Positions 1 to 21,084 of a DNA stretch of 21,084 nucleotides are shown one piece after another. Below the pieces are notes generated by a model. It made no database searches. It saw only the letters and a program-made list of their open reading frames with translations, and was not told the origin of the DNA. The stretch lies in NCBI GenBank assembly GCA_015146655.1, contig VKHL01000271.1, positions 1 through 21,084 of the forward strand, given 5' to 3'. The stretch comes from Ochromonas danica (Eukaryota; Sar; Chrysophyceae; Chromulinales; Chromulinaceae). A program made the position numbers and the translations under genes. Numbering within the stretch: the first letter of the stretch is position 1; every line of letters starts with the position of its first letter.

Positions 1-164
1 GGTAGTAGTGTAGTGTAATATGAGAGTAAGATGTATGTATAGTATATAGTGGGCTATGTATAGAGGTAGAAGGAGTATGTGATGGTGAATGTATAGGATA
101 GCGAGTATGCAGTATAACTACAATGTTAACGATGATATGATTGTATTATAATTATGATTAATAG

Positions 165-1453
165 AATGGATGGCCTTCTCCATTGGCTATCGCAAGTGGC
201 AATGGGCAATTGGAAGTGGTGAAGGTGTTGCTGTCAGATCCTCGTGTTGATGTTAATAAAGCAAACGAGGTGAGTGACTGTAGGTTTCATGTGGTATGAT
301 ATTATAGGGTCTGCATATTGTGTGTTTATCGGTTTACCTGTATTGTGTTAGCCATTATAGTATTATAATGCCTGCTTAACACCCAAGAGATTGTTATTAT
401 GATAGACTGTATTTCTATTGCGTTCTATTATCTTATCTTATCTTATCTTATATGTCTTGTAGTGCATGGTAGTTTTATGGTGTGTGTCATTGTCTATGAG
501 GTGTGGAGTAGCTGTGCTTGAGGTGTTGTTCTAATGAAGATGATATGTCTCTATCATATTGACTATAATAATGTTATTGTATGATGGTCACCAGGATGGA
601 ATGTCTCCATTACATTTTGCCTGTCAGAATGGCTCAGTGGAAGTGGTGAAGGTGTTGCTGTCAGATCCTCGTGTTGATGTTAATAAGACAGATAAGGTAC
701 AATGACTGAAGAATGTCACTATTTTGTTTAATGGTAGAATCTACATTTGGTAAACGATTCTATGTTAATTAATTCTATTCTTAGGATGTTTATTGTATTG
801 TATTGCTATTGTTGAAGTTTTTGTTATATGAAGAGGATGGTCTATGTTGTTGTCTATATTGTAGTTTTCTTTTAATATATGATGGAAAGGGTTGATCTAA
901 CCTGTTTTGATGTTTGTTGATGGTTAGCCGCCAGTTATTACATTTGCCAATAGAATCCTGAGTTTGGTGGAAACAACTCCCTTGATCAAGAATTTTGCTG
1001 ATATGGTCACCAAGGTAATAAAACTAAAGTCTGTTTGCTATTTCTATCCTATGTTCTCTGAATGTAGTGTATATGTGTGTGACATTGTATTGTATAGTAG
1101 TCTAGCATATGTTTAGATAGAAAATGGTAGAGAAGATGGTGAAGTTGATCTAATATGTGATGATGATGATATTGTGTTTGTTGGTTAGGCTGAAATGACT
1201 TCTCCATTAGCAGTTTCCTGTGCCTATAAACAAACGGAGGTAGTGAAGATCTTGATGGCTGATCCTCGGGTGAAAGCTGGTGCAATTGTCCAGGTAAATG
1301 CTGAAGAATGTTGCTGTTACTATCCTGTTGTTACTATTGTTTGTAGTATGTGATGGAGAGGATATTAGTGCTGTTATTCCAATAAGTAATGATGATGATG
1401 ATGATATTTCTGTATGATAGGCCTTTTGTGCGACGACGGGATGGTTTCTATGA
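165..1453 (+). CDS. Ankyrin-repeat protein, 3' part of a multi-exon gene (5' end outside window)
   Basis: I read five exons: 165-269, 595-696, 928-1014, 1189-1293 and 1421-1453 (TGA stop). All splice in phase 0 at GT-AG sites. The first two are one ankyrin repeat each (35 and 34 codons) with SPLxxAxxNGxxEVVKVLL followed by SDPRVDVNK. The third (29 codons) is not recognisably ankyrin. The fourth is a divergent repeat ending MADPRVKAGA, and the last encodes ten residues. Ankyrin repeats mediate protein-protein contact and no catalytic domain is visible. Positions 1-164 are the end of an intron closely related to those at 2773, 3454 and 4135, so more exons lie upstream. The five-exon ending matches exons 9-12 of the next gene, making the two tandem paralogues. 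Exon limits come from repeat homology plus splice signals, not transcripts. Confidence 0.75.
425..451. repeat. (TCTTA)n microsatellite in ankyrin intron
   Basis: About four to five TCTTA units within the 325-nt intron 270-594. Confidence 0.8.
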
Positions 1454-1901
1454 TCTTAATGAAAGATGGTTGAGACAGTTATTGTATTACATATTGACAG
1501 AGTTGATCATATTACATCATATTGCTGTTACCACTAATTCATATCAAGTTATAAATTATTAAGTTTTGTTGATGGTTGTTTAAACTATTTCACTCTAAAT
1601 TAAGTGCTTGATCACCATCGAAACAGGCTAAATTACAATTTGACATATTTTGACACTTTGAACAATTTTTACCACCTCCACACCAAAACAAATCACAAAG
1701 TGAGGGCTAAATTGGTGTTTTGACACTGTGGCATTCAGGTTTTGACAGCTTTTACCATGCCAATCCGCTCCTGTCCAAATCCAAAAGGAAAAGGAAATCA
1801 CAATCAAATCAATTCACTGACTGATTGACTGACTGATTTACTGTGACAACAACTAACTACTGCTATAGACAGAATAATAATAATAGAAGAAGAAGAAGAA
1901 T
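1454..1901. other. Intergenic region between tandem ankyrin genes
   Basis: This holds the 3' flank of the first ankyrin gene and the promoter/5' leader of the second. A stretch near 1525-1552 (gttaccactaattcatatca) recurs near 5250 after the second gene, so the two 3' flanks are paralogous. Just before the ATG at 1902 are CTGA-type repeats (about 1817-1840) and an ATA/GAA microsatellite (about 1875-1900). I see no convincing TATA box or RNA gene. Confidence 0.5.
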
Positions 1902-4900
1902 ATGGCATCATACTATAAGATCTTATTCTGTCAATTGATCTTTCTCTTTGTCTTGCTTTTCTTTCTTATCTCAACCACCACCTCAGCAGATTTTTATATT
2001 GTATTGTCTGTCGCGATGTCTCAAAATGGAGTAGTAGAAAACCCAATGCCAACAACTCCTGATGAGGTAAGTGTGTTGAAATTGTATGATATTGGACGAT
2101 CCCAACACGACGTCATTATTGTTGACAGCTGTCTATTATCCGAAGTGTTTGCTTTATTAAGATGGGAATGCTAAAGTGTGATTTGATTGTGTGTTGCTTT
2201 TTAGATTAAATTGCGTCTATTTCATGATGCTTGCGCAGATGGTGACACAGAAATAGTGAAAGATCTGATAAAGGGATTGGATGTAAACCAGCCAAATAAG
2301 GTGAGCATGACCAAATAATTACTACTAGTCTAGTAGAAGTGTGGGAGATTGAAATCTAGGTTGTATGATATGATGGTTATCAGGACGAATTTTCTGCATT
2401 GCATTTCGCAAGTTTCAAAGGCCATGTAGAAGTGGTGACTTATTGTCAGATCCACGGGTTGATGTTAATAAAGCTGGGATGGTAAGTAGCTGTATAATCA
2501 AACAGTGAATTATTGTCTAGTATATGACTGTATCGGATGTAGTATTGATCTCGTTTGACTTTAGATACTGTAGTGTAGTATAGTACAGTATGGTATACGA
2601 AGAATTGGTGGTCAATCTACTATAACCATATGATATATTAATGATGATATGCTTGTATGATGGTTATCAGTACGGATGGTCTCCATTCCATCTCGCAATT
2701 TTCGGTGGGCATCTAGAAATGGTGAAGCTCTTCTACTCAGATCCTCGAGTTGATGTTAACCAAGGCAACAAGGTAAGTGATGTCTGAAGTCATGGTGTGT
2801 ATAGTCTGAATCATCTATTGCAGCATGTGTAAGGTATTGTGGTTTAATGAATATGAGTGCATAGTGTAAGGGTAGTAGTGTAGTGTACTATGAGAGTAAG
2901 ATGTATGTATAGTATATAGTGGGCTATCTATAGAGGTAGAAGGAGTATGTGATGGTGAATGTATAGGATAGCGAGTGTGCTCTATAACTACAATGTTAAC
3001 GATGATATGATTGTATGATGGTGCTTAGGACGGTTGGTGTTCTCCATTGCATTTCGCAAGTGCCGTGGGCCAAGTAGAAGTGGTGAAGGTGTTGCTGTCA
3101 GATCCTCGTGTTGATGTTCATAAAGCAGGGGAGGTAAGTGTCTGCATTGTTTAATATCGAGTATCCAGATAAGTAATAGCTGAGGCTATGGTATGGTTTT
3201 ATTTACGATGGTTAAGTGTGGTATGATATTAGGTAGATATGTTGAATAAGGTGTTTTGGTGGCCACTGCGGTGCCACCATATGATAATGATGTGTACCTT
3301 GTTGTTGATAATAGCGCTTAATTTGTTGTGTGTATGTATGATGGCTATCAGTACGGATGGTCTCCATTACATTACGCCTGTAAGAATGGCTCAGTAGAAG
3401 TTGTGAAGGTGTTGCTGTCAGATCCTCGGTTTGATGTTAATCTAGCCAACAATGTAAGTGATGTCTGAAGTCATTGTGTGTATAGTCTGAATCATCTATT
3501 GCAGCATGTGTAAGGTATTGTGGTTTAATGAATATGAGTGCATAGTGTAAGGGTAGTAGTGTAGTGTACTATGAGAGTAAGATGTATGTATAGTATATAG
3601 TGGGCTATCTATAGAGGTAGAAGGAGTATGTGATGGTGAATGTATAGGATAGCGAGTGTGCTCTATAACTACAATGTTAACGATGATATGATTGTATGAT
3701 GGTGCTTAGGACGGTTGGTGTTCTCCATTGCATTTCGCAAGTGCCGTGGGCCAAGTAGAAGTGGTGAAGGTGTTGCTGTCAGATCCTCGTGTTGATGTTC
3801 ATAAAGCAGGGGAGGTAAGTGTCTGCATTGTTTAATATCGAGTATCCAGATAAGTAATAGCTGAGGCTATGGTATGGTTTTATTTACGATGGTTAAGTGT
3901 GGTATGATATTAGGTAGATATGTTGAATAAGGTGTTTTGGTGGCCACTGCGGTGCCACCATATGATAATGATGTGTACCTTGTTGTTGATAATAGCGCTT
4001 AATTTGTTGTGTGTATGTATGATGGCTATCAGTACGGATGGTCTCCATTACATTACGCCTGTAAGAATGGCTCAGTAGAAGTTGTGAAGGTGTTGCTGTC
4101 AGATCCTCGGTTTGATGTTAATCTAGCCAACAATGTAAGTGATGTCTGAAGTCATTGTGTGTATAGTCTGAATCATCTATTGCAGCATGTGTAAGGTATT
4201 GTGGTTTAATGAATATGAGTGCATAGTGTAAGGGTAGTAGTGTAGTGTACTATGAGAGTAAGATGTATGTATAGTATATAGTGGGCTATCTATAGAGGTA
4301 GAAGGAGTATGTGATGGTGAATGTATAGGATAGCGAGTATGTAGTACAACTACTATGTTAACGATGATATGATGGTATGATGGTGCTTAGGCTGGATGGT
4401 CTCCATTGCATATCGCAAGTGGTAAGGGTCACGTGGAAGTGGTGAAGGTGTTGCTGTCAGATCCTCGTGTTGATGTGAATAAAGGATATGAGGTAGAATG
4501 CCTTAAGAATGTCACTATGGCTTGACTATCATTTAATTACATTGTACTACAATGGAATTGTTGCGGGCTACTAATAATATATGATATAGAGGATGTAATA
4601 GCATTGATCTAACCTGTTTTGATGTTTTATGATGGTTAACAGCCCTTTCCGGTTGTTGCTGGAATGTTCAAAAAGCTGGCGGGGTGGTTTTCTTTTGATA
4701 TGCCTCCCTTAATGAAATATGCTTATAAGATCCTCCTGGTAATAAAAGATTGTTAAAGTGTTTCCCTCCTCCGGTGTAGAATATCACTATTCCTATCGTT
4801 TAATTGCCGAGTCTATCTTTTCTGTAAATGGTTCTATGTTTAATATATATCTTAGAGTATGTGTTGTGTAGTGGATTGTTGTGTAGTGCAGTGTATTGTA

Positions 4901-5229
4901 TTATACTTGTATTGTATTATGGCATGTGTTTGCAGAAGTGGTATCAGTAGAGAAGATAATAATGTTGATCTAATATATGATGATGATATTTGTTTTTGCT
5001 GGTTAGGCCCAACCGTCTACTGCATTAGCTTATGCCTGTTTTTGTGGACAAGATGAGGTGGTGAACATCTTGATGGCTGATCCTCGGGTGAACGTTGGTG
5101 TATATATCCGGGTAAATGTCTCGAGAATGTAGCTGTTACTATCCTATTGTTATTTGTACTTATAGACTATGTGATGATGTTGTTGTATGATAGGTCGTTT
5201 GTGCGGCGGAACTTCTTTTCCGACCTTAA
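1902..5229 (+). CDS. Ankyrin-repeat protein, 12 exons, one repeat per exon; exon 3 frame-disrupted
   Basis: Exons: 1902-2066, 2205-2300, 2384-2481, 2671-2772, 3029-3133, 3352-3453, 3710-3814, 4033-4134, 4391-4492, 4643-4738, 5007-5111, 5194-5229 (TAA). All except exon 3 are multiples of three and join in phase 0. Exon 2 and exons 4-9 are ankyrin repeats (SPLHxAxxxGxxEVVKVLL, then SDPRxDV). Exon 10 is a non-ankyrin linker, exon 11 a divergent repeat, and exon 12 encodes VVCAAELLFRP. Exon 3 is 98 nt, 4 nt shorter than its 102-nt relatives; the loss lies just after GAAGTGGTGA near 2440, and reading on meets a stop in exon 4. Skipping exon 3 keeps the frame and gives about 371 residues. Exons 5-6 are duplicated as 7-8. 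The N-terminus is hydrophobic (residues 7-23), like a signal peptide. An alternative start is the ATG at 2016 (MSQNG). The role is probably protein binding; the partner is unknown. It may be a functional gene with a skipped exon or a young pseudogene. Confidence 0.72.
2773..3453 (+). repeat. 681-bp tandem duplication, copy A (intron 256 + exon + intron 218 + exon)
   Basis: This unit consists of a 256-nt intron, ankyrin exon 3029-3133, a 218-nt intron and ankyrin exon 3352-3453. It is followed directly by a copy at 3454-4134. By eye the only difference is G at 2794 against T at 3475. It adds 69 codons in frame. Confidence 0.92.
3454..4134 (+). repeat. 681-bp tandem duplication, copy B
   Basis: This is the second copy of the unit, with exons 3710-3814 and 4033-4134. 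Its first intron is a hybrid: its 5' part matches the following intron (4135-4338, T at 3475 and 4156) and its 3' part matches the copy A intron. That places an unequal crossover between homologous 256-nt introns. Confidence 0.92.
4135..4390 (+). repeat. Third member of the 256-nt ankyrin-gene intron family
   Basis: This 256-nt intron has the same length as 2773-3028 and 3454-3709. It is identical to the latter from 4135 to about 4338 and then diverges near the acceptor. Positions 1-164 carry a related intron end belonging to the upstream paralogue. Confidence 0.85.
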
Positions 5230-5723: not shown

Positions 5724-8700
5724 CTACCAAGCCAACCAATCATTCAACCAATGCTTGGGATAGGTACGAGTGAACCATTTCCTGCCTTCTGTGTAACTCC
5801 ACAACGCAGCTGTTACCCACAGAGCACCATAGAGGAGCTCCAGAGACATGGGATTGCGAGCTTGGGTGACATAGCGAATACCAGGGCAGTAGACCACGAA
5901 GCATCCCAAGGCGATGGCCAACACAACACCAAAGTTGGTGGTGCGATTGTCGAAGAAGCCGTGTTCGAAGATGGACACTGTGCAAGTACGACAAGTCCAA
6001 ACATGAGCAGCCTGACCAATCACGATCATCAGATACCAGCCTGCATAGACAGATTGTAAGATGTGCAACTGCTGGCGCTGTTCATAGACATCTCCATCGT
6101 TGGTCACGAAGTTCCAGTGATCTGTCTTGGGGAAATACTTGTTGTTGTTTTGGACGACATGCAACGGACTGACACCATAGTGAGAGAAGGTGCGGAAGTA
6201 AATGAAGAAGCAAGCAGCCGTGAGGATGATACCAGCTTGACCATAAGAATAAAAGAGAAGCTTGAAGGAGGTCAATCGCTCCTTGTTGATGTCACGAGGA
6301 GGCACTTGCATGATCAAGCTCTCTGCCTTCTCGAAGGCAAAGGAAGTTGCAGGAACCAACTCGGTCAACAAGTCAATACACAAAGTCAACATCGAACCCA
6401 TGGGTTGAGGGAAACCCACATAACCCCACAGTAACACAGGAATGACTTCTGGTACAAGATGGGCCAATGTATAAGCGATGGACTTCTTGAGGTTGGCAAA
6501 CAGAAGTCGTCCTTCTCGAATACCCACCACAATCGAAGCGAAATTGTCGTCCAACAGCACCACATCTGCTGCTTCTTTCGCCACTGCACTACCATTCAAG
6601 CCCATCGCAATGCCAATGGCTGCCTGCTTCAGAGCTGGTGAGTCATTCACACCATCTCCAGTCATTGCTGTCACACTGCCAGCCTTCGTGAACTCCTTCA
6701 CAATGATGAGCTTCTGCTCGGGAGACGTGCGGGCAAAGACGATCTCGGGTTTGTTGACCAGCTTGCTCCAGTCTTCTTCAGTCATCTTGGGGATTTCCGA
6801 ACCATGTACCACCACGGCTTGGGCCTCGTCTGGATGCACTTGGTCGATGGGAACACCGCGCTCTTTCGCCAGCACATCTCGTGTTGGTAGTGTGATCAAG
6901 CCGATGCTACGCGCAATCGCTGCGGCTGTCAAGGGATGATCACCTGTGACCATCACCACTTTCACACATGCAGTGTGACAATCTTTCACAGCCTGAGGCA
7001 CTTCTTTGCGAGGAGGATCCATCAAGGTGATCAACCCCACGAAGATCATGTCGTTGATGGGAGTGGTCGTCTCTTTGCCAATCATGTCCGCGCGCAGCTT
7101 CTCTTTGAAGTGAGGGTCAGCCTCGATCAACTCCGCATAGCTGCCCTTCAGAGGCTTCATGGCAAAGCCCAGCACACGCTCTCCATTGCCTCCGAAGTCC
7201 TCATACACAGCCGTGTAGATGTCTGTGAAGGCTTCGTCGATGGCCTTGATCTCACCGCTGGAGCTCAAATAGAAAGCGCACTTGCCCAACAAGACATCAG
7301 GAGCTCCTTTCAAGAAGATCATCTCCTGCTTCTGCATCGAAACCAAAGGATGGATGGACATCTGCCACTTGAACGACGAGTTGAAAGGAATCTCATGCAC
7401 CTTGCGATTGTCCGCTCGGAAGGATTCTATGTCCACCTTGTTGTGGACCTTCAGGAAATCGCGGCAGAAGCGATACAAACCCAACTCCGTCGCATCGCCA
7501 TTCGGAACCAACTCGTCACTGTCCTTCGACTTCTTCTCCAAGATCACGCGAGAGTTCAACGCAGCGATCTCCAACAGGCGTTGCTGCTGGACGGTCAGTG
7601 GAGCGGCTTGTTGTTCCTGCACCAACCCCTCCGCTGTCATCTTCTGGTTGTAGGCCCAGGCATTCGCCACCGTCATCTGGTTCAACGTCAACGTGCCTGT
7701 CTTGTCCGTGCAAATGCAAGTGCAGCAACCCAATGTCTCGATAATGTCCAGCTTCTTCACGAACACATTCTGAGCTCGCATCCTCTCTGCAATGATGTAC
7801 AAACAGGCCGTGATGGTCGTGGGTAAGCCTTGGGGAACATTGCCCACCATGATCACCACGAAGCCGTTGATGAAGACCTGGATAGGATCTAAGCCGCGAG
7901 ACAAACCCACTATGAACACCGTGGCAGCTTGACACAAGGCGAAGATGGCCAACAGCTTCACGAAGTACTCGATATCGGCTTTCAGAGTGCTCATGGCTTT
8001 GTCTGCATCGCCCGTCAGCTCCACCATCGTGCCAATCAACGTGGCATCTCCGGTGCGAATCACCACGGCATAGCAAGCCCCATCCACTGCCAGAGAGCCG
8101 TTGAAGATGATATTCTTAGCCTCCAAGGCATGGGGATCCGCTGCAATGACTTGGCTGTCCACAGGCTCTGCTTCACCCGTGATCATGGATTGGTCCACCT
8201 GAAGAACGACCAGACAATACAATACGAAGGGAGAAGGTCAATATATGGTGTAGTGCAGTATAATCAGCAGGAGAATGCAAACATAGGATATGCCGCAATC
8301 CTTCAACACATTCATCACCCACACAATCCTTACCTTCAAGCTCTCACACAGAATCACGCGACAATCCGCGGGAACCTTGTCTCCAGCCTTCACACGAATG
8401 ATATCTCCCAACACCAACTCAGAAGTGTCCACCGACTTCATGGCTCCGTCACGAATCACCATTGCTGCCTCTGGCACCATCGCGCGGAACTGCTCCATCA
8501 ACGAGTCGGACTTGGCTTCTTGGGAGTACGTCTCATAACAAGTCACGATCACCACTGCGAACAGCAGCACTCCCAAGTACAGGTTGTCTTGCACGGAGGG
8601 AGACACGATGTAGAGGATGATGCAAAGTAAGGCTGTGATCTCTAGCAACACCATCAAAGCGCTGGCAAACTGCATCAAGAACAACAACCACAAGGGAACC

Positions 8701-9098
8701 TTCGGAGGAGGTGTCAGAACATTGGGTCCGTACTCTTTCAAGAGCTTCTCGGCCATGTCCGAGGTCAGACCTGGACTTTTCTCAATGGCATGGAAGTCAA
8801 TGGCAGTATGGAACTTTTCGGTAATGGCTTCCAGAGAATAGAGGTGCTCAGAATATGCACCACCAGCTCCTTTGCTTGGATTGTGTTCATGCAGAGGGGG
8901 TACAGGCAATAGATTTGGTATGGAAGATGAACTAAGGCGCTTTCTTACAGCCACCACAAGTCTTTCTGTTGCTATCTCACCACTCTCATTGGTGGGTAAC
9001 AAAGGATTGTATTCCCCAGCTGCCACTTCTGTATCATGACTTGTACTTGCCACAGAACCTGTTTCAAGGTCTTTCTCATAATGAGAAGACATTTCCAT
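5724..9098 (-). CDS. P-type IIC ATPase alpha subunit (Na+,K+/H+,K+-ATPase-like), minus copy
   Basis: Exon 1 is 9098-8334 and exon 2 is 8198-5724, with a 135-nt GT-AG intron at 8333-8199. The protein is 1,079 residues. By family it is a membrane pump using ATP to exchange cations. Visible motifs: GPNVLTPPP before M1, TGEA (A-domain, residues 262-265), DKTGTLT (phospho-Asp 420), FNSSFKWQMSIH and KGAP (nucleotide domain), MDPPR, TGDGVND (768-774), then IIC-type M5/M6 (CIDLLTELVPA), SYGQ in M7 and a TEGRKW C-terminus. Length and the roughly ten-helix layout suit a complete IIC alpha subunit. Its last 823 codons, intron and most of exon 1 match the plus-strand copy at 9729-13229; only the first 90-odd residues differ. 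M4 has VPQGL where Na+,K+-ATPase has VPEGL. No beta subunit gene lies in the window. Na+,K+ or H+,K+ specificity cannot be decided. Confidence 0.93.
5725..8816 (-). repeat. Inverted-repeat arm 1 (3,092 bp, ATPase)
   Basis: This is the reverse complement of 10137-13228 (positions pair so that the coordinates sum to 18953). Reading frames on both strands give the same translations in both arms, which implies nucleotide identity rather than protein identity alone. The arm includes the intron. It ends abruptly at the second base of the stop codon and at a codon for Lys in EKFHTAIDFH. Confidence 0.93.
8199..8333 (-). other. ATPase intron, minus copy
   Basis: The intron runs from GTAAGG (8333) to TTCTTCAG (8199) on the minus strand, with a pyrimidine-rich 3' part. 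Removing it joins ESLK to VDQSMITGE, as expected for the family's conserved A-domain region. It appears identical to the intron at 10620-10754. Confidence 0.9.
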
Positions 9099-9728
9099 GC
9101 TTAACTAGTATTTGGATTATGATCAATCATGGCTAAAGGCCTGTCCAAAGAGTGGCGAGCCACGAATTATTGGAAATCTCTTGTCTATCAAAGATTGCCT
9201 GTTGATTTCGTCTGTTGGCTGTCAGACTTTGTCCAAGTTCTGCTGTATGCAACGTGTGGTGGCCGTGCTGTATGCCCTCTGCTGTATGAGGAGGAAAACC
9301 TTGAGTTTCCCTCAAGTCGACTTTTCTTCCCCTGTTCCACACGGTCCGTAGCGGTCAGAACTTGAAGAAGTGCACTGCTGTACAACACACCGTCAGGAAT
9401 ATACAGTCTCCTAGGAGTCACATAAACACCTTTTTAGGTCCAAGAAACACTGCCCAAGGTGTTGTTTCTATGACTTTGTCGATTCAAGATTGGTAAAGAA
9501 AGAACTTTGTCTGACGGTTCAGACTTGTTACCAAAGAATGGTTGACCGTTCATCCTCGATCCTATCACAGGGTCATGGGATGGCTTGGACAAGACAAACC
9601 CTAGTCATAACTTAACTACCACTCACTCATTCTTTGGTCGTCCTTTATCCCTTCCTTGGGACACACAGTCGACACAACAGTCTTCACTTTTGCTTTTGCT
9701 TCTGCTTCTGCTTCTTTAGTATTCAGTC
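9099..9728. promoter_or_regulatory. Divergent 630-bp promoter region between the two ATPase genes
   Basis: The two ATPase start codons lie 630 bp apart, head to head, so both upstream regions are here. The two halves do not look like mirror images, unlike the coding arms. A GCTTTT/GCTTCT tract (about 9690-9716) precedes the plus start. A perfect 6-bp-stem hairpin, GTCTGA-CGGT-TCAGAC, lies at 9509-9524. The octamer CTGACGGT occurs at 9511-9518 and, inverted, at 9389-9396. No clear TATA box is seen. Short open frames at 9112-9421 overlap on both strands and look spurious. Confidence 0.6.
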
Positions 9729-12700
9729 ATGGACAATCAAGACAAAGACCTTGAAGCTGCTCATTTAAAAGAAAGTGATCGTATTTCTGACACTTCCACC
9801 CTTCATGAATCTACAACATGGATTCCTAACGGTACAGGAAAATATCAACCATTAGATACACACAATGCTCATGTCAATGCACGTCGTAGTGGATCAGCTA
9901 GTGTTCTGGTTACAAACGAGAAAGGAGAAGTGACAGTAGAAAGGAAAACCACCGATTTGGGTATTGCCGTGAGGAAAAGACTCAGTGCATCATCCATTCC
10001 AAGTATTATTCCTGTGTTACCAAGAGAGCCTTCTGCTCCTCTGATTAACGCAGAAGATGCTTTAGAAAGAACGGGTGGAAAAGGAGCAGCAGGAGCTTAT
10101 TCTGAGCATATGTATCCTTTAGAAGTCATTGCTGAGAAGTTCCATACTGCCATTGACTTCCATGCCATTGAGAAAAGTCCAGGTCTGACCTCGGACATGG
10201 CCGAGAAGCTCTTGAAAGAGTACGGACCCAATGTTCTGACACCTCCTCCGAAGGTTCCCTTGTGGTTGTTGTTCTTGATGCAGTTTGCCAGCGCTTTGAT
10301 GGTGTTGCTAGAGATCACAGCCTTACTTTGCATCATCCTCTACATCGTGTCTCCCTCCGTGCAAGACAACCTGTACTTGGGAGTGCTGCTGTTCGCAGTG
10401 GTGATCGTGACTTGTTATGAGACGTACTCCCAAGAAGCCAAGTCCGACTCGTTGATGGAGCAGTTCCGCGCGATGGTGCCAGAGGCAGCAATGGTGATTC
10501 GTGACGGAGCCATGAAGTCGGTGGACACTTCTGAGTTGGTGTTGGGAGATATCATTCGTGTGAAGGCTGGAGACAAGGTTCCCGCGGATTGTCGCGTGAT
10601 TCTGTGTGAGAGCTTGAAGGTAAGGATTGTGTGGGTGATGAATGTGTTGAAGGATTGCGGCATATCCTATGTTTGCATTCTCCTGCTGATTATACTGCAC
10701 TACACCATATATTGACCTTCTCCCTTCGTATTGTATTGTCTGGTCGTTCTTCAGGTGGACCAATCCATGATCACGGGTGAAGCAGAGCCTGTGGACAGCC
10801 AAGTCATTGCAGCGGATCCCCATGCCTTGGAGGCTAAGAATATCATCTTCAACGGCTCTCTGGCAGTGGATGGGGCTTGCTATGCCGTGGTGATTCGCAC
10901 CGGAGATGCCACGTTGATTGGCACGATGGTGGAGCTGACGGGCGATGCAGACAAAGCCATGAGCACTCTGAAAGCCGATATCGAGTACTTCGTGAAGCTG
11001 TTGGCCATCTTCGCCTTGTGTCAAGCTGCCACGGTGTTCATAGTGGGTTTGTCTCGCGGCTTAGATCCTATCCAGGTCTTCATCAACGGCTTCGTGGTGA
11101 TCATGGTGGGCAATGTTCCCCAAGGCTTACCCACGACCATCACGGCCTGTTTGTACATCATTGCAGAGAGGATGCGAGCTCAGAATGTGTTCGTGAAGAA
11201 GCTGGACATTATCGAGACATTGGGTTGCTGCACTTGCATTTGCACGGACAAGACAGGCACGTTGACGTTGAACCAGATGACGGTGGCGAATGCCTGGGCC
11301 TACAACCAGAAGATGACAGCGGAGGGGTTGGTGCAGGAACAACAAGCCGCTCCACTGACCGTCCAGCAGCAACGCCTGTTGGAGATCGCTGCGTTGAACT
11401 CTCGCGTGATCTTGGAGAAGAAGTCGAAGGACAGTGACGAGTTGGTTCCGAATGGCGATGCGACGGAGTTGGGTTTGTATCGCTTCTGCCGCGATTTCCT
11501 GAAGGTCCACAACAAGGTGGACATAGAATCCTTCCGAGCGGACAATCGCAAGGTGCATGAGATTCCTTTCAACTCGTCGTTCAAGTGGCAGATGTCCATC
11601 CATCCTTTGGTTTCGATGCAGAAGCAGGAGATGATCTTCTTGAAAGGAGCTCCTGATGTCTTGTTGGGCAAGTGCGCTTTCTATTTGAGCTCCAGCGGTG
11701 AGATCAAGGCCATCGACGAAGCCTTCACAGACATCTACACGGCTGTGTATGAGGACTTCGGAGGCAATGGAGAGCGTGTGCTGGGCTTTGCCATGAAGCC
11801 TCTGAAGGGCAGCTATGCGGAGTTGATCGAGGCTGACCCTCACTTCAAAGAGAAGCTGCGCGCGGACATGATTGGCAAAGAGACGACCACTCCCATCAAC
11901 GACATGATCTTCGTGGGGTTGATCACCTTGATGGATCCTCCTCGCAAAGAAGTGCCTCAGGCTGTGAAAGATTGTCACACTGCATGTGTGAAAGTGGTGA
12001 TGGTCACAGGTGATCATCCCTTGACAGCCGCAGCGATTGCGCGTAGCATCGGCTTGATCACACTACCAACACGAGATGTGCTGGCGAAAGAGCGCGGTGT
12101 TCCCATCGACCAAGTGCATCCAGACGAGGCCCAAGCCGTGGTGGTACATGGTTCGGAAATCCCCAAGATGACTGAAGAAGACTGGAGCAAGCTGGTCAAC
12201 AAACCCGAGATCGTCTTTGCCCGCACGTCTCCCGAGCAGAAGCTCATCATTGTGAAGGAGTTCACGAAGGCTGGCAGTGTGACAGCAATGACTGGAGATG
12301 GTGTGAATGACTCACCAGCTCTGAAGCAGGCAGCCATTGGCATTGCGATGGGCTTGAATGGTAGTGCAGTGGCGAAAGAAGCAGCAGATGTGGTGCTGTT
12401 GGACGACAATTTCGCTTCGATTGTGGTGGGTATTCGAGAAGGACGACTTCTGTTTGCCAACCTCAAGAAGTCCATCGCTTATACATTGGCCCATCTTGTA
12501 CCAGAAGTCATTCCTGTGTTACTGTGGGGTTATGTGGGTTTCCCTCAACCCATGGGTTCGATGTTGACTTTGTGTATTGACTTGTTGACCGAGTTGGTTC
12601 CTGCAACTTCCTTTGCCTTCGAGAAGGCAGAGAGCTTGATCATGCAAGTGCCTCCTCGTGACATCAACAAGGAGCGATTGACCTCCTTCAAGCTTCTCTT

Positions 12701-13229
12701 TTATTCTTATGGTCAAGCTGGTATCATCCTCACGGCTGCTTGCTTCTTCATTTACTTCCGCACCTTCTCTCACTATGGTGTCAGTCCGTTGCATGTCGTC
12801 CAAAACAACAACAAGTATTTCCCCAAGACAGATCACTGGAACTTCGTGACCAACGATGGAGATGTCTATGAACAGCGCCAGCAGTTGCACATCTTACAAT
12901 CTGTCTATGCAGGCTGGTATCTGATGATCGTGATTGGTCAGGCTGCTCATGTTTGGACTTGTCGTACTTGCACAGTGTCCATCTTCGAACACGGCTTCTT
13001 CGACAATCGCACCACCAACTTTGGTGTTGTGTTGGCCATCGCCTTGGGATGCTTCGTGGTCTACTGCCCTGGTATTCGCTATGTCACCCAAGCTCGCAAT
13101 CCCATGTCTCTGGAGCTCCTCTATGGTGCTCTGTGGGTAACAGCTGCGTTGTGGAGTTACACAGAAGGCAGGAAATGGTTCACTCGTACCTATCCCAAGC
13201 ATTGGTTGAATGATTGGTTGGCTTGGTAA
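9729..13229 (+). CDS. P-type IIC ATPase alpha subunit (Na+,K+/H+,K+-ATPase-like), plus copy
   Basis: Exon 1 is 9729-10619 and exon 2 is 10755-13229, with a 135-nt intron. The protein is 1,121 residues, 42 longer at the N-terminus than its minus-strand twin. Motifs: GPNVLTPPP, TGEA (304-307), DKTGTLT (phospho-Asp 462), KGAP (594-597), DPPR (691-694), TGDGVND (810-816), M5-M6 with HLVPE (877-881) and CIDLLTE (904-910), M7 SYGQ, M8 Q1026. The YEQR motif after M7 is kept, but the preceding SYGQQW contact for the beta subunit known in animal enzymes is not obvious. The cytosolic N-terminus is poorly conserved except for AVRKRLSxSSIP, a possible basophilic-kinase site also present in the twin. It probably energises the plasma membrane or an internal membrane by cation transport. 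The start is the first ATG after the pyrimidine-rich leader. Confidence 0.94.
10137..13228 (+). repeat. Inverted-repeat arm 2 (3,092 bp, ATPase)
   Basis: Partner of 5725-8816. Upstream of 10137 the two genes still align (AYSEH, EKFHTAIDFH) but differ at many bases; downstream of it no difference was found until the stop codon, TAA here and TAG in the other arm. Spacer between arms: 1,320 bp. Confidence 0.93.
10620..10754 (+). other. ATPase intron, plus copy
   Basis: A 135-nt GT-AG intron starting GTAAGG and ending TTCTTCAG. It contains an in-frame stop, so retention would truncate the pump before the catalytic Asp. It appears identical to the minus-copy intron, a sign that the homogenisation was not driven by selection on protein alone. 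Confidence 0.9.
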
Positions 13230-14414: not shown

Positions 14415-16136
14415 ATGTCCAGCGAGAGATCATTATTGTGGCAGCTGGATCGAGACGTCCTTCATTGTCTTTACTCGGAATGGTTGGGATCATGGCGGGA
14501 TCTCAGAGCATTGGATGTTGCCTGTGCAGGAGAAAGTGGTGGTGATCGAGCAGCTTGGCTATCTTCTTTATCAGGTTTGGTAATGGCAAGAGGAATGAAT
14601 GAACTACCAGATTACTTTCGCAATAAAGTGGTTGAGCTCTATAAATGGCTAGGCAGTCGTAATGTCTTTCTGGTGGAAGACTTCCCTGTGAGACTCGAGT
14701 CGCTCGATGATTTGCAGAATGCATTGAACTTAACAACCTATTGTCCAGATATTCGCTCTATTGAAATCGACAGAAACGAAGGGACTGATGATTCTCGGAA
14801 AGAAGTGAACATAAAGGCAATGCAAGACGGATTTTGTTTATTTCTGAAGCAATGCAGACGACTCAATTCCGTGACAATCAAGCCTCATGGAAGCTCCTTC
14901 GCAACTATCAAAATAGACGAAATGTTGTTATCAGTGATGTTTAAGGAGTTGAAGAACAACACGTTAGTCAAGATTAATCTGAGAATAGACTCTGTTTCTA
15001 TCTCTTTAAGATCGATCACCAGGTTGCTATCCAACCATACATCCAGCATCAAAGATGTAGTGATAGTAGCTAGTGTTCCAATTCAAGGGTCATTTGATGA
15101 GGTGTTGAACTTTCTTGGTCAGAATAGGATATCTTTGAGAAGGTTGACCATTGGTTCCGATCTCTTGTCGCGTCAGAGATTGTTGGACTATGTTTCAACT
15201 TTCGGAACAAGTATAGAGATTCTAGAATTGGGGGGAAAATATTATCATGAGATTGATCTTGCCATAACGGAAGAGGTGTTGTTATCGATTGGAAGGGCCT
15301 GTCCGAGGTTGAGAACTTTACGATTGAGCACCAAAGATCGACGCTTTTCTGGTCCCACTATGGTTCGGCTTTCTGAGCTGTATCGTATATGTCCTGATCT
15401 AAGGGCTTTGTCTTTCCCGTCGATTGAGATTGATCTTGTGGTTGATGATAAGAAGCATGAAGTATTGTTTTCCAACAATAAATGCAGAAGTCGAGAAGAA
15501 ACAGAAGATTGGATTGAGTGTGTGAGAACTGTAGTGGATAGATGTGGATACAAATATCTCACAATGATGAGCTATAGTGACAAGATCGTCAATGGTGACC
15601 ATTGGGATGTTGTGAAGTCCAAATTGTCTCCTTACATCACCACAATGGAAGTGTCAATGATAGAAGCTACTCTAGTGGAGGCTGTGAGAGACCTTCCTCG
15701 GTTGGAGAAGCTCGATGTCTGTGCTGGCAATTTCCAGATTGGTGATGTTAGCTTAGCCGCCGTTGTGGAGCATGCGTCTGCTCGATTGCAAATGCTCCAT
15801 ATAAACGCCTTTTATCCGAGTGATGAACATTTTACAGACCAGATGATCAGCAAGATGATTCGAGCTTGCCAGAGGTTGCAGGTGCTGATAATACGTAATG
15901 CTGGCTGCGAGAGTGTGTTGGCGGTGAAGGATCATGGTTGTTTGAGAGAGGTGTTTTTGAACAATGTAGCAGCAGAGGAGTCGGTCATAGCGAGTGTTCT
16001 GCAAGAAGAAGGGGAGAATCAACATTGGCCGCGGACATTGAGAAGAGGTGTGGTGGAGAGAAGGAATGCCTACAGCTTCTTTTATGAGGCGAAGTCGCAC
16101 ACTTGGGTAAAAAAAGTTATTTATTGGCAAACCTAA
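14415..16136 (+). CDS. F-box-like / leucine-rich-repeat (RNI-type) protein
   Basis: A single open frame of 573 residues. The N-terminus (about 8-40; LDRDVLHCLYSEWL then LRALDVACAG) has the helical, hydrophobic spacing of an F-box. The C-terminal two thirds carry irregular leucine-rich repeats of the kind in F-box/AMN1 proteins, for example LLSIGRACPRLRTLRLS, LYRICPDLRALSF, and ISKMIRACQRLQVLIIRNAG. Known members recruit substrates to SCF ubiquitin ligases; that role is inferred here and the target is unknown. It is paralogous to the minus-strand gene ending at 18775: both share VACxG, a WLG segment followed by PxRL, and QDxFxxFLxxC. The start is the first ATG that includes the whole F-box-like segment. 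No intron is needed. Confidence 0.7.
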   Translation: MSSERSLLWQLDRDVLHCLYSEWLGSWRDLRALDVACAGESGGDRAAWLSSLSGLVMARGMNELPDYFRNKVVELYKWLGSRNVFLVEDFPVRLESLDDLQNALNLTTYCPDIRSIEIDRNEGTDDSRKEVNIKAMQDGFCLFLKQCRRLNSVTIKPHGSSFATIKIDEMLLSVMFKELKNNTLVKINLRIDSVSISLRSITRLLSNHTSSIKDVVIVASVPIQGSFDEVLNFLGQNRISLRRLTIGSDLLSRQRLLDYVSTFGTSIEILELGGKYYHEIDLAITEEVLLSIGRACPRLRTLRLSTKDRRFSGPTMVRLSELYRICPDLRALSFPSIEIDLVVDDKKHEVLFSNNKCRSREETEDWIECVRTVVDRCGYKYLTMMSYSDKIVNGDHWDVVKSKLSPYITTMEVSMIEATLVEAVRDLPRLEKLDVCAGNFQIGDVSLAAVVEHASARLQMLHINAFYPSDEHFTDQMISKMIRACQRLQVLIIRNAGCESVLAVKDHGCLREVFLNNVAAEESVIASVLQEEGENQHWPRTLRRGVVERRNAYSFFYEAKSHTWVKKVIYWQT

Positions 16137-16929
16137 CTGCTGACGGTTGTTGTTTGAGGGTTTCCTTGGCTTGGTAGCGTCTAGAGACGCCGTTGTTCTT
16201 GGCTGACTTATTCTGGCATAATTACAGTACTTGGCGGATGACAGACCAGCGGATGTTATTGGGGGAAAGTTATCGTACTAATGCAATGCAATTTTCTTGC
16301 AATCATACCTAGTACAGTAGGTGTTGTTATGCCTTTGCTATTGATGTACTAGTATTTGTTATTTGACGGTTTTGACTTTTTGGTTTGGATTTCCGCCGGA
16401 TTTGTGGGATTCAGATTAGGGATTTCATAGCGGTCTTTTTCATAAGATAAGTTAACTGCTGTAAGCGCAGCAGATTGGTTCTCTCTCAAGATTAATAACC
16501 CGATTGATAACCCTTGATGACCAAAGTTTCTTAAACATGTAGTTTCTTAATCTGATCAGTGGTTATTCCATATGGTGTGCACGTAGATATTCAAAGAAGG
16601 AAAACGAAAAATTGCCTTTTTATGGTCATTTTCCGCGTTTTGTTTCGCTTTTTGTGTGTGTTTTCCGGTTTTAGTGAAGTTAAAGCTGAAAAAACGAAAA
16701 GCCAAACACTGGAACAGCCTCAGAGCACAGTCCGTACTACAGTGTTCCTACTAAGTTAACGGTACATACCCCTCCTAGACATCATCTCATCTCATCTCGT
16801 CATCATCTTCTCTCACAACAGACTGCCTCACAAGCTTCTGTCCTCTCATAACTTTATCCCAATAACCTCCTCTAGTAGTCAGTCTAGTCGACACAATTGA
16901 ATACCCAGCAACAACAAGAAGTAGTCATC
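16137..16929. other. Intergenic region with promoter of the ParB-like gene
   Basis: I find 793 bp without a convincing gene. CTGACGGT lies 4 bp after the LRR stop (16140-16147) and TTGACGGT at 16363-16370. A short hairpin CTGCTG-TAAGCG-CAGCAG lies near 16457-16474. The last 150 bp before 16930 are pyrimidine-rich with CATCT repeats, typical of a leader. The 66-codon frame at 16559 looks spurious. Confidence 0.45.
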
Positions 16930-17898
16930 ATGTCGTCCTTCTCTAATGTTCCTCTCTTAGATCTTTGCTTAGATCCTCATCTTCATCAGGGTTTACTTCA
17001 TGATGAACGTCAACGACAATCCATTGCCAGTTGGTTAGATCGCTTCCATGAAATCACTTCTCCTGACCATTCAGATGCTCTACAGAAGATCCTGTCAGAC
17101 AAAGGCAAGACTATTCACGATGCTCCGTTCGTCATCTCTCATCAAGGTATCAATGGCTTCTTCCTCTCCGCTGCACCACCCATTATGTTGGACACTACTA
17201 CTACCACTACTACTGCTACCGACACGGACAGGGTAGTAGTCGATGTCCAACTTCACGATGGTAATCATCGTATGCTAGCTTTAGCGTATTTCTTTGGTAT
17301 TGAACGTTTTGCAGAGTTTACAATTCATGATTTAGAAGTGAATCATGTGATTAAATTCTTTCATACTAAACCATTAACAACACAAGATCTATTAGCATTA
17401 AAACAAGTTGATTATAATGCTGATGAGTTGGATAATCAAATTGAATATTGGTATTCTGCTAAACCATGTGAGAACTTTATCAACAAATGGCAAGGTGGTG
17501 CAAGAGGTAGTGCTAATCGTGATGATCCAGGGCATTATTTTGCATCTTGTTATGTACACTATCTTCGTAGTCATGTCCCAATTAATCTACGAGATTACTA
17601 TGGTATGCAAGAGAAGTTTACACTTCGTCATGCTTTAGGAATTCTTCTACAACAATCAGATATCCTACCACGTCCTTTACGTCTTGGTTTAGTTGAGATT
17701 CCTACTAAAAGAGGATATGAACTACGTGGTCAGTTTACACGTTGGATGGCAGCTTATCCATCCATCTATTGTAACCCACCGAATGGTAAGTTTCTTCTTC
17801 CTACTGGTCATAGTTATGAATACAAGTATTATCGTCCTAGTGATAGGACATGGTATCCAGATGGAGGGAATCTCAGAGTCACACCACGTGATATCTAA
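16930..17898 (+). CDS. Hypothetical protein with ParB/sulfiredoxin-like DGNHR motif
   Basis: The protein has 322 residues. I chose ATG 16930 because the open frame upstream begins only with TTG. The segment VVVDVQLHDGNHRMLALAY (DGNHR at 110-114), followed by FFGIERF, resembles the D/E-G-x-H-R turn and helix of ParB-N/sulfiredoxin folds, where the motif binds nucleotide or phosphate. In bacteria such domains are CTPases, nucleases or regulators; no such activity is shown here. A threonine run (about 89-95), from an ACT/ACC microsatellite, precedes the motif and may be a flexible loop. The C-terminal half is rich in aromatic and basic residues (YYGMQEKFTLRHALG, YEYKYYRPSDRTWYP) and matches no family I know. 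No signal peptide or membrane helix is evident. It sits between two LRR paralogues and is unrelated to them. The family link is tentative. Confidence 0.6.
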   Translation: MSSFSNVPLLDLCLDPHLHQGLLHDERQRQSIASWLDRFHEITSPDHSDALQKILSDKGKTIHDAPFVISHQGINGFFLSAAPPIMLDTTTTTTTATDTDRVVVDVQLHDGNHRMLALAYFFGIERFAEFTIHDLEVNHVIKFFHTKPLTTQDLLALKQVDYNADELDNQIEYWYSAKPCENFINKWQGGARGSANRDDPGHYFASCYVHYLRSHVPINLRDYYGMQEKFTLRHALGILLQQSDILPRPLRLGLVEIPTKRGYELRGQFTRWMAAYPSIYCNPPNGKFLLPTGHSYEYKYYRPSDRTWYPDGGNLRVTPRDI

Positions 17899-18774: not shown

Positions 18775-21084
18775 TCAGGTAGTTGTAGTCGTTGTGGTTG
18801 TTGTGGTTGTATTCATATAGAGATAGCTTCGTATGGAATGAGGAATCTCAACAATATGAGAAGGCAAAGCAGAAGAAGAAGGTAGCCATGCACCAGGTGT
18901 TGTCAAATACAACACACTACTACCACTACCACTACTACTACCACTAGACGAGGTAGTGCAGGTAGTGGTAGAAGTAGTGGTGCTAGTGATATCATCATCT
19001 AACAAGTTGATAGCATAGAGATCTAATCCAGGATAGAGATTTTCATGTGCTCCTTCTTGTGTACGAGAAAAGCAAAACTCTGTTAAATCAATTAAATCAA
19101 TCATACCTAGTTTTAATGGACCTTTCCATTGTCTGTTAATCTGTGGAGAGGTAACCCAATGCATGAGATGTGTTGTCTCAGACTCTGGTACATGATCGAA
19201 TAGGAAATACTGTAGTTGAGATAGTTGACTTAGTTCATAGAGGACACGGCCTATTCCCTCCTCACTACCACCACTACCACTACCTCTGCCACCACCTGTA
19301 ACACTACCTCCACTACCCCCACTACCACTACCACTGCTAATGCTACCACTACCGCCAGTGTATCTCCCCCATGACAAAGCAAGACTAGCCAAACATGGAC
19401 AACCTCGTAACATAGCACAAATCCCATCAATTGTAAAACAACATCTATTTCTCCGACTAGCTTCTTCATCATCATCTTCATCATCTCTACCACGAATCCA
19501 TAAAGAGATCATATTAGAATGATAATAGGCTACTTTAGCTAATGACTCATTGGTTAACTCCATATGTCCATAAGAGGTAAAGAGGTTTAATGAGATTAGC
19601 TGTGGACATGTTTCAATGAGAGTATCAAGCGTTGTGTTTGATAAGGTATCAATGGAAGATTGAAAGCAAATGAGATAGAGTGAGACTTCATTCATCATGA
19701 CATGTAAGTCCTTCTCTTCCAACATTTTATCCTCATTCTCAATATAAATACCATAACTACCACTACCACTACCACCACTACCTCTGCCACTACCTATAAC
19801 ACTACCACTACCACCACTACCACTACTTCCACCACTACCTGCAACACTACCACTACTGCTACTTCCACCAATGCCTATAGCACTACCATTACTACCACTA
19901 CCACTACACTCCCTTGCACCTCCTTGTAGTCGTGTAACTAGCAAATGTAACGATTGCATCCAATCTTGCCATGCATTCTCCATTAATTGTGATGTCTTAT
20001 TAACTAGTTTAATCACATTCTTCTTGTTCTCTTGTTCTTCTACTATCATAAATCCTTCTAATTGAATAGTGACTAATCTTGTAAACATTGTATATAAAGG
20101 TAATAATGGTGGGATTGACTTTCTACCAAAACGATTGAGATATTTAGAGAGTAATGATAGGTTATGTGAAGATGGACATGTTGTTAATACATTAGGTAGT
20201 AGATCAATCCCTGTACCAAAGATATCATGTGGAAATCCTTGTAGTTTTAATTCTGTTAAGTGAGGGTTATTCGAAAAGGATAGATAGTGCCATAGCCATG
20301 ATGAGGATGATGTAGGTGGTAGGTTAGGCTTTACTATGAGGTTGATAGTAGAGAGGGAATAACAATAGCAGCAACAACAGCAACTGTTGGTGGTGTTACT
20401 GTTACTATTGGTGTTGGTTTCGTGTATTGGAGGGATCGACCAGGTCAGATGTGCTGTTTTGACAAATGATAGGTCATCAGGTGGTGGTAGTAGTAATAGT
20501 TGGTATTGGTTGATCAGTGCTGTGGCAAGTAGATTGGCATGGTCATGCTCTGCTGTCAGTGTGCTGACAACAGGTAGTGGTGGTGGTAGTAATGGGGTGG
20601 GTAACGAGGAGGTGCGAGAGGAAGTGCAGGTAGTGGTAGTCCAAGAAGATAGAAACTCTTTGATATCACCATAGTAGAAGATTACCATACCCCCTCCTCC
20701 CATGTGGGAAGGTGTCATTAGATAGTGACAACGATGGAGGAAGATGGAGAAGTCGTCCTGCACTCTCAACAAGCTAGTCCTTGACAACACATCCTCTCCT
20801 CCATCCACCATCACACACAGAGACCTCATACCAACACAGCTTGACTCACTCCAGCATGACAACACCTCCGCCAATGCACTCAATCGCAATGGCAACTCTC
20901 GCACACACAGTCCACGATGACCCAGCCAGCGATACCACCTCTCCAACTCACTCACACCAACCACTCCACCCTTGTCTGCTGATCTTCCTCCTCTTCCTGC
21001 TTCTTGCCTCATGCCTCCTAAGATCAACCCATTCAACACACACAGCCACTCACTTCGACAACTTCCCAAACAGGCCACATCCCA
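18775..21084 (-). CDS. F-box-like / LRR protein with Gly-Ser and Thr tracts, 5' end outside window
   Basis: The frame is open from the window edge to a TGA at 18777-18775, about 769 residues. It reads WDVACLG at the edge, matching LDVACAG of the plus-strand paralogue, so the true start lies beyond 21084 and the GTG at 21078 is not a start. Conserved blocks are WYRWLGHRG, LPLRLSAL, and VQDDFSIFLHRCHYL. RNI-type repeats include LIETCPQLISLNLF and MLRGCPCLASLALSWG. Three low-complexity insertions, absent from the paralogue, are encoded by ACC/ACT-type microsatellites: Gly/Ser at about 19911-19756 and 19360-19262, and Thr/Ser/Gly at about 18989-18917. The C-terminus is a run of about 11 Thr. A Cys-rich run (SCCCCCCYCYSL) lies near 20370. 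The tracts sit between repeats, so the fold may tolerate them. Function as an SCF adaptor is inferred from family only. Confidence 0.68.
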   Translation of the reverse strand, partial: WDVACLGSCRSEWLCVLNGLILGGMRQEAGRGGRSADKGGVVGVSELERWYRWLGHRGLCVRELPLRLSALAEVLSCWSESSCVGMRSLCVMVDGGEDVLSRTSLLRVQDDFSIFLHRCHYLMTPSHMGGGGMVIFYYGDIKEFLSSWTTTTCTSSRTSSLPTPLLPPPLPVVSTLTAEHDHANLLATALINQYQLLLLPPPDDLSFVKTAHLTWSIPPIHETNTNSNSNTTNSCCCCCYCYSLSTINLIVKPNLPPTSSSSWLWHYLSFSNNPHLTELKLQGFPHDIFGTGIDLLPNVLTTCPSSHNLSLLSKYLNRFGRKSIPPLLPLYTMFTRLVTIQLEGFMIVEEQENKKNVIKLVNKTSQLMENAWQDWMQSLHLLVTRLQGGARECSGSGSNGSAIGIGGSSSSGSVAGSGGSSGSGGSGSVIGSGRGSGGSGSGSYGIYIENEDKMLEEKDLHVMMNEVSLYLICFQSSIDTLSNTTLDTLIETCPQLISLNLFTSYGHMELTNESLAKVAYYHSNMISLWIRGRDDEDDDEEASRRNRCCFTIDGICAMLRGCPCLASLALSWGRYTGGSGSISSGSGSGGSGGSVTGGGRGSGSGGSEEGIGRVLYELSQLSQLQYFLFDHVPESETTHLMHWVTSPQINRQWKGPLKLGMIDLIDLTEFCFSRTQEGAHENLYPGLDLYAINLLDDDITSTTTSTTTCTTSSSGSSSGSGSSVLYLTTPGAWLPSSSALPSHIVEIPHSIRSYLYMNTTTTTTTTTTT
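18917..18989. repeat. ACC/ACT microsatellite switching strand sense within one gene
   Basis: Repeats of CCACTAC type flip at about 18947 to GGTAGTGG type, so the stretch can pair with itself. It encodes Thr- then Ser/Gly-rich sequence on the minus strand. Confidence 0.7.
19262..19360. repeat. CCACTACC-type microsatellite in coding sequence
   Basis: Degenerate tandem ACC/ACT triplets that encode a Gly/Ser-rich loop (GGSGSISSGSGS...) on the minus strand, between two LRRs. Confidence 0.8.
19756..19911. repeat. CCACTACC-type microsatellite, longest in window
   Basis: About 155 bp of ACC/ACT triplets with scattered substitutions, in frame. It encodes a Gly/Ser linker of about 50 residues on the minus strand. 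Confidence 0.8.

Follow-up and report, generated by a model that had tools for sequence, protein, structure and literature searches.

Head-to-head type IIC P-type ATPase genes of Ochromonas danica with identical bodies and diverged ends: probable gene conversion between old duplicates

Two divergently transcribed, head-to-head genes predicted to encode type IIC P-type ATPases, A and B, are very probably old duplicates whose bodies were recently made identical by ectopic gene conversion. Both genes lie in the window, that is, the whole stretch of DNA analyzed, which comprises the complete contig C271 (G000:C271; 21084 bases, in a genome of 31.19 Mb and 337 contigs). Gene models were obtained from open reading frames, splicing, translation, and Pfam matches. 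Gene A (5724-9098, minus strand; 1079 aa) consists of exons 9098-8334 and 8198-5724, the latter closing with TAG as the single terminal stop, and of intron 8333-8199. Gene B (9729-13229, plus strand; 1121 aa) consists of exons 9729-10619 and 10755-13229, ending with TAA, and of intron 10620-10754. Each gene thus presented a single intron of 135 nt.

Exon 1 of A displayed Cation_ATPase_N and E1-E2_ATPase over the Pfam cut-off, and exon 2, scanned as the identical copy of B, displayed E1-E2_ATPase, Hydrolase, Cation_ATPase, and Cation_ATPase_C. The translation of the core common to A and B contained DKTGTLT; DKTGT is what we take to be the phosphorylation motif of P-type ATPases. Among proteins of solved structure, the best relatives of the core were Na,K-ATPase alpha chains, alike across nearly the whole second exon, with 558 bits vs. 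284 bits for the best Ca-ATPase among the best 60 of 127 matches listed. Judged by these comparisons, A and B are predicted to be type IIC (Na,K/H,K-like) P-type ATPases, nearer to Na,K/H,K alpha chains than to the Ca-ATPase types. The likeness to the Na,K alpha chain was not complete in the region of M5 and M6, whose residues we assume to be the ion sites: PE in M5 and the first acid of M6 were kept, whereas the second acid of M6 was E and not D. The stretch SYGQ that precedes TYEQR in the Na,K chain, presumably the beta-subunit assembly motif of animal alpha chains, was left unmatched by the A/B query in the alignment. Type IIC P-type ATPases have been reported in protists, stramenopiles among them, and the beta-subunit assembly motif is given as absent in protists other than choanoflagellates, according to PMC9609216.

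The bodies of both genes form an inverted repeat. Arm 1 (5725-8816, minus strand) extends from codon 95 of gene A to two bases of its stop codon, intron included, and arm 2 (10137-13228, plus strand) is the corresponding part of gene B. The preliminary description had reported arms free of any difference, even in the intron and at third codon positions, and this was borne out base by base: 5725-8816 was the exact reverse complement of 10137-13228 (3092/3092, 0 differences), all 985 of the 985 codons inside the arm matched between A and B, and the intron was the same letter for letter (8199-8333 on the minus strand, 10620-10754 on the plus strand). A repeat search with 14-base seeds and a minimum of 40 nt returned this inverted pair as the single one in the whole window. 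The pair could be extended inward to 5725-8873 and 10080-13228, the inner 57 bases (8817-8873) holding 15 mismatches, and the arms were separated by a spacer of 1320 bp (8817-10136). At the other end, identity stopped on the stop codon itself, which is TAG in A and TAA in B. The window therefore holds two linked paralogues in inverted orientation, as is characteristic of a palindromic pair.

Outside the arms the two genes were clearly different, as had been claimed before. The diverged N-terminal part comprised 94 codons in A (8817-9098, minus strand) and 136 codons in B (9729-10136, plus strand), and the first 94 codons of A showed 51% amino acid and 35% third-position identity to B. These parts are nevertheless related, their alignment scoring above all 200 dinucleotide shuffles. 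At four-fold degenerate sites, 15 out of 21 differed between A and B in the N-terminal part vs. 0 out of 450 in the arm (Fisher P = 7e-24). On the 5' side, identity broke off inside homologous coding sequence: the next 57 nt (8817-8873 on the minus strand, against 10080-10136) were aligned free of gaps with 42/57 positions identical, that is, 15 mismatches. An edge of this type looks like the end of a conversion tract and not like the breakpoint of a fresh duplication. Silent sites and intron were thus homogenised within the tract and adjoining homologous sequence was diverged, the combination that marks a conversion pair.

The start codons of A and B are 630 bp apart (9099-9728, no strand assigned), a region that by its position should contain the divergent promoters. 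In local alignments, no likeness above dinucleotide shuffles was found between the two halves of this region (33/200 shuffles reached the score) or between the 3' flanks, compared over 500 nt after each stop (15/200), in agreement with the divergence of promoters and 3' flanks noted earlier. Global alignments of promoters and of 3' flanks each scored above all 20 plain shuffles; our verdict rests on the local alignments and their 200 dinucleotide shuffles and not on the global ones, and a faint remnant of flank homology between A and B is possible, which would fit an old duplication. Within the 630 bp only short imperfect repeats and no strong repeat were detected, and the fold of this region as single-stranded DNA was unremarkable (z -1.21).

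Two close relatives of A and B were found in the genome, C on contig C44 and D on contig C64 (1602 bits each against the core protein), the next match of the genome search reaching 175 bits. The cores of A and B shared 83% amino acid and 52% third-position identity with C and D, and 214 of the 372 four-fold sites compared differed between A and C. C and D, in turn, presented 3251 consecutive identical bases, including an intron of 66 nt, on different contigs. Downstream of this run there were 2 mismatches before the gene end, one of them silent, in the last alanine codon, one tryptophan short of the end, and the other at the last base of the stop. Neither promoters nor 3' flanks of C and D were alike above shuffles (47/200 and 128/200 reached the score, respectively). 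As C and D are equally alike on different contigs, such identity can do without a short-range inverted layout, and the earlier wording of genes "locked" in their inverted repeat was overstated. Paralogue C is adjoined by a gene with a DUF1348 (SnoaL-like) domain (L009 8804-9289; Pfam E 3.4e-66).

The N-terminal part of B was closer to C (70% amino acid identity over 136 codons) and D (74% over 131 codons) than to A (51% over 94 codons). Over the 94 codons common to A, B, and C, nucleotide distance was 0.32 for B-C vs. 0.44 for A-B, and the former was the smaller in 0.9996 of 10000 bootstraps. The relationships are therefore in conflict, as judged from distances among four genes and not from a rooted tree: the N-terminus of B is nearer to C than to A, and the core of A equals that of B. 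With four genes and no outgroup, the two readings predict one and the same unrooted tree; the comparison was therefore based on distances and four-fold sites. The proximity of B to C and D suggests that the N-terminal divergence between A and B is no younger than the split of B from C and D. A faster evolving N-terminus in A would weaken this argument from distances, but neither the contrast in four-fold sites nor the lack of silent change in the core. An old duplication followed by recent homogenisation, as put forward in the preliminary description, is thus supported by the four-fold sites, by the conflicting affinities of N-terminus and core, and by the position of the 5' boundary in gap-free homologous coding sequence.

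Similar patterns in further sets of genes from this genome also support it. The families were hand-picked: actin (16 matches, 16 loci compared), HSP70 (26 matches, 20 loci compared), tubulin (18 matches, five copies read, two of them in part), and the P-type ATPases of contig C40 (three of four places read), A to D and the C40 copies being the P-type ATPase relatives studied. The coding sequences of three alpha-tubulin genes on C80 (L062, G000:C80:51500-57600), whose reading frames are uninterrupted by introns, were identical (1362/1362). Two of these genes stand head-to-head with 448 bp between start codons and have alignable flanks (98.7% over 1537), and the third matched them over a stretch that opens 9 nt ahead of the start and closes 2 nt past the stop, the flanks being unlike beyond. 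Three P-type ATPase copies on C40, different in type from A and B and for which only E1-E2_ATPase and Hydrolase were over the Pfam cut-off, presented identities of 98.6, 99.2, and 99.3%, with alignments whose downstream edges were at most 12 nt from the stop. An HSP70 gene on C107 was 99.1% identical over 815 nt to a fragment on C24; beta-tubulin-like copies on C24 and C89 were less alike (96.1% over 1011 nt), and no near-identical copies from different places were found among the 16 actin matches. As far as these sequences indicate, the A/B pattern is repeated in other gene sets, though not in every family.

In the HSP70 gene on contig C92, two introns (L050 2352-2670 and 3383-3699) had 319 nt in common at 99%; a search for an introner family of this element, in which very common words were skipped, found it at these 2 places only. 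An HSP70-like protein (L050 926-1426) and another that by eye is HSP90-like (L010 5744-6529) carried leader-like N-terminal stretches, which we take to resemble the targeting signals of algae with complex plastids. Beside an actin-like gene on C165 there was an inverted repeat of 157 bp with 97% identity (L027 1-157 and 695-851).

The exact identity of A and B might be produced by the assembly, if collapse, gap filling, or polishing of slightly different genes had put one arm sequence in both places. An exact zero in three gene sets and a contig of merely 21 kb speak in favor of such an artefact, which we nevertheless regard as quite improbable: this assembly separates copies with 18, 19, and 32 mismatches in about 2.5 kb and with five in 815 nt, so that only a small true difference between A and B could have been erased, and the two arms continue into different coding N-termini and different 3' flanks, unlike in a fold-back chimera. 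On the same two grounds, A and B are probably two real, near-identical genes, although assembly or polishing could have sharpened the exact zero in several gene sets.

Full identity, intron included, is also what would be expected of a very young duplicate, and a recent inverted duplication of the core, broken near codon 95 on one side and at the stop on the other, would then account for the arms without any conversion. It is, however, highly improbable, because at both loci the 5' edge is flanked, in register, by homologous coding sequence that has diverged. This indicates that both loci already held related genes, and a core copied in register into an existing homologue is gene conversion. 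Moreover, an edge at the stop or within a few bases of it recurs not only in C and D but also in copies 1 and 2 of alpha-tubulin.

Copying through reverse-transcribed mRNA instead of DNA repair would agree with identity that stops at the coding ends and with alpha-tubulin frames that lack introns, but it is scarcely credible for genes which retain identical introns in A/B and in C/D and whose tracts end at or near the stop codon and not in the 3' UTR; copying from an unspliced-RNA template may be conceived as a variant. Purifying selection alone has a negligible probability of holding the cores identical in spite of a conserved protein (83% amino acid identity of A/B to C/D), as the third positions of the same comparison agree in just 52% and 214/372 four-fold sites differ between A and C, showing that silent sites are free to change, and the intron is identical too.

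Under conversion of old duplicates, one copy would serve as the template to mend a break or gap in its partner, and the copied tract would extend only while both copies still pair. A tract so limited would halt at the stop codon, beyond which there is no clear homology, and, on the other side, within the N-terminal codons; drift would continue in the promoters, the N-termini, and the 3' flanks. The intron copied along with the rest in A and B argues against a spliced-cDNA intermediate. The outcome would be two pumps with a common catalytic body and different N-terminal tails and promoters. Conversion as the mechanism, its recency, its direction, and any benefit derived from it (dosage, or separate regulation of one pump) are what we infer here. 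On general grounds, a crossover between the arms would be expected to flip the spacer, thereby swapping promoter and N-terminus between the 3' ends of A and B, an inversion of the kind that the preliminary description had anticipated; inversions are named among the outcomes of crossing-over in palindromic pairs in a Drosophila review (PMC3924832). We also entertain, as a rather doubtful extension, that this lineage might have an unusually active ectopic conversion which holds paralogous coding units identical to the letter throughout the genome, whether or not they are linked; one coding sequence would then be served by several promoters and N-termini.

The process itself is already known, and the A/B locus would belong, according to our analysis, with the palindromic pairs of the Hsp70 and Amy genes. 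The same review describes Hsp70Aa/Ab and Hsp70Ba/Bb of Drosophila as tightly linked mirror-image pairs whose duplication predates the species and which were homogenised by ectopic conversion (PMC3924832). A and B are likewise tightly linked mirror-image paralogues with homogenised copies, but from another gene family and lineage, and the case of the fly was built on several species and shared silent polymorphisms, whereas ours comes from one genome. For the palindromic pair Amy-p/Amy-d, concerted evolution within the coding sequence and flanks that appear independent are described in that source (PMC3924832). A and B share with it the mirror-image arrangement, the homogenised gene bodies, and the diverged flanks; in contrast with Amy, escape extends to the N-terminal codons, 94 in A and 136 in B, and identity covers an intron. 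In the hsp70 clusters of Stratiomys singularior, coding sequences are homogenised, 3'-UTRs are diverged, and one inverted pair lies within the cluster, as stated in PMC3071340; unlike the A/B pair, that is a multi-gene cluster with polymorphism data. None of the papers listed in our literature search was on this locus or on a comparable pair of type IIC pumps, a result that does not by itself establish absence.

A and B provide a clean natural case of the limits of conversion, placed on the stop codon and inside the N-terminal domain. Whether inverted linkage speeds homogenisation is a question raised by the Drosophila review (PMC3924832), and this genome offers matched comparisons in which to ask whether it truly does: one pair in inverted orientation, one divided between contigs, a set of three tubulin genes, and copies on the same contig. 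Genes of this type also carry a warning: their duplications will be misdated in phylogenies that rely on the cores.

The remainder of the window contained other genes. An ankyrin-repeat gene occupies 1-5200 (plus strand), with repeats apparently on separate short exons and Pfam Ank matches in three of four translated pieces. In this gene, a stretch of 300 nt from 2714 recurs twice with a spacing of 681 bp (95 and 93% identity), which suggests that the ankyrin array grows by duplication of exon-intron blocks. Beyond gene B, three large open reading frames (14415-16136 and 16897-17898 on the plus strand, 18775-21084 on the minus strand) were without any Pfam match over the cut-off. The first and the last of them have, by eye, a similar opening stretch, and the last one contains long Gly-Ser and Thr runs.
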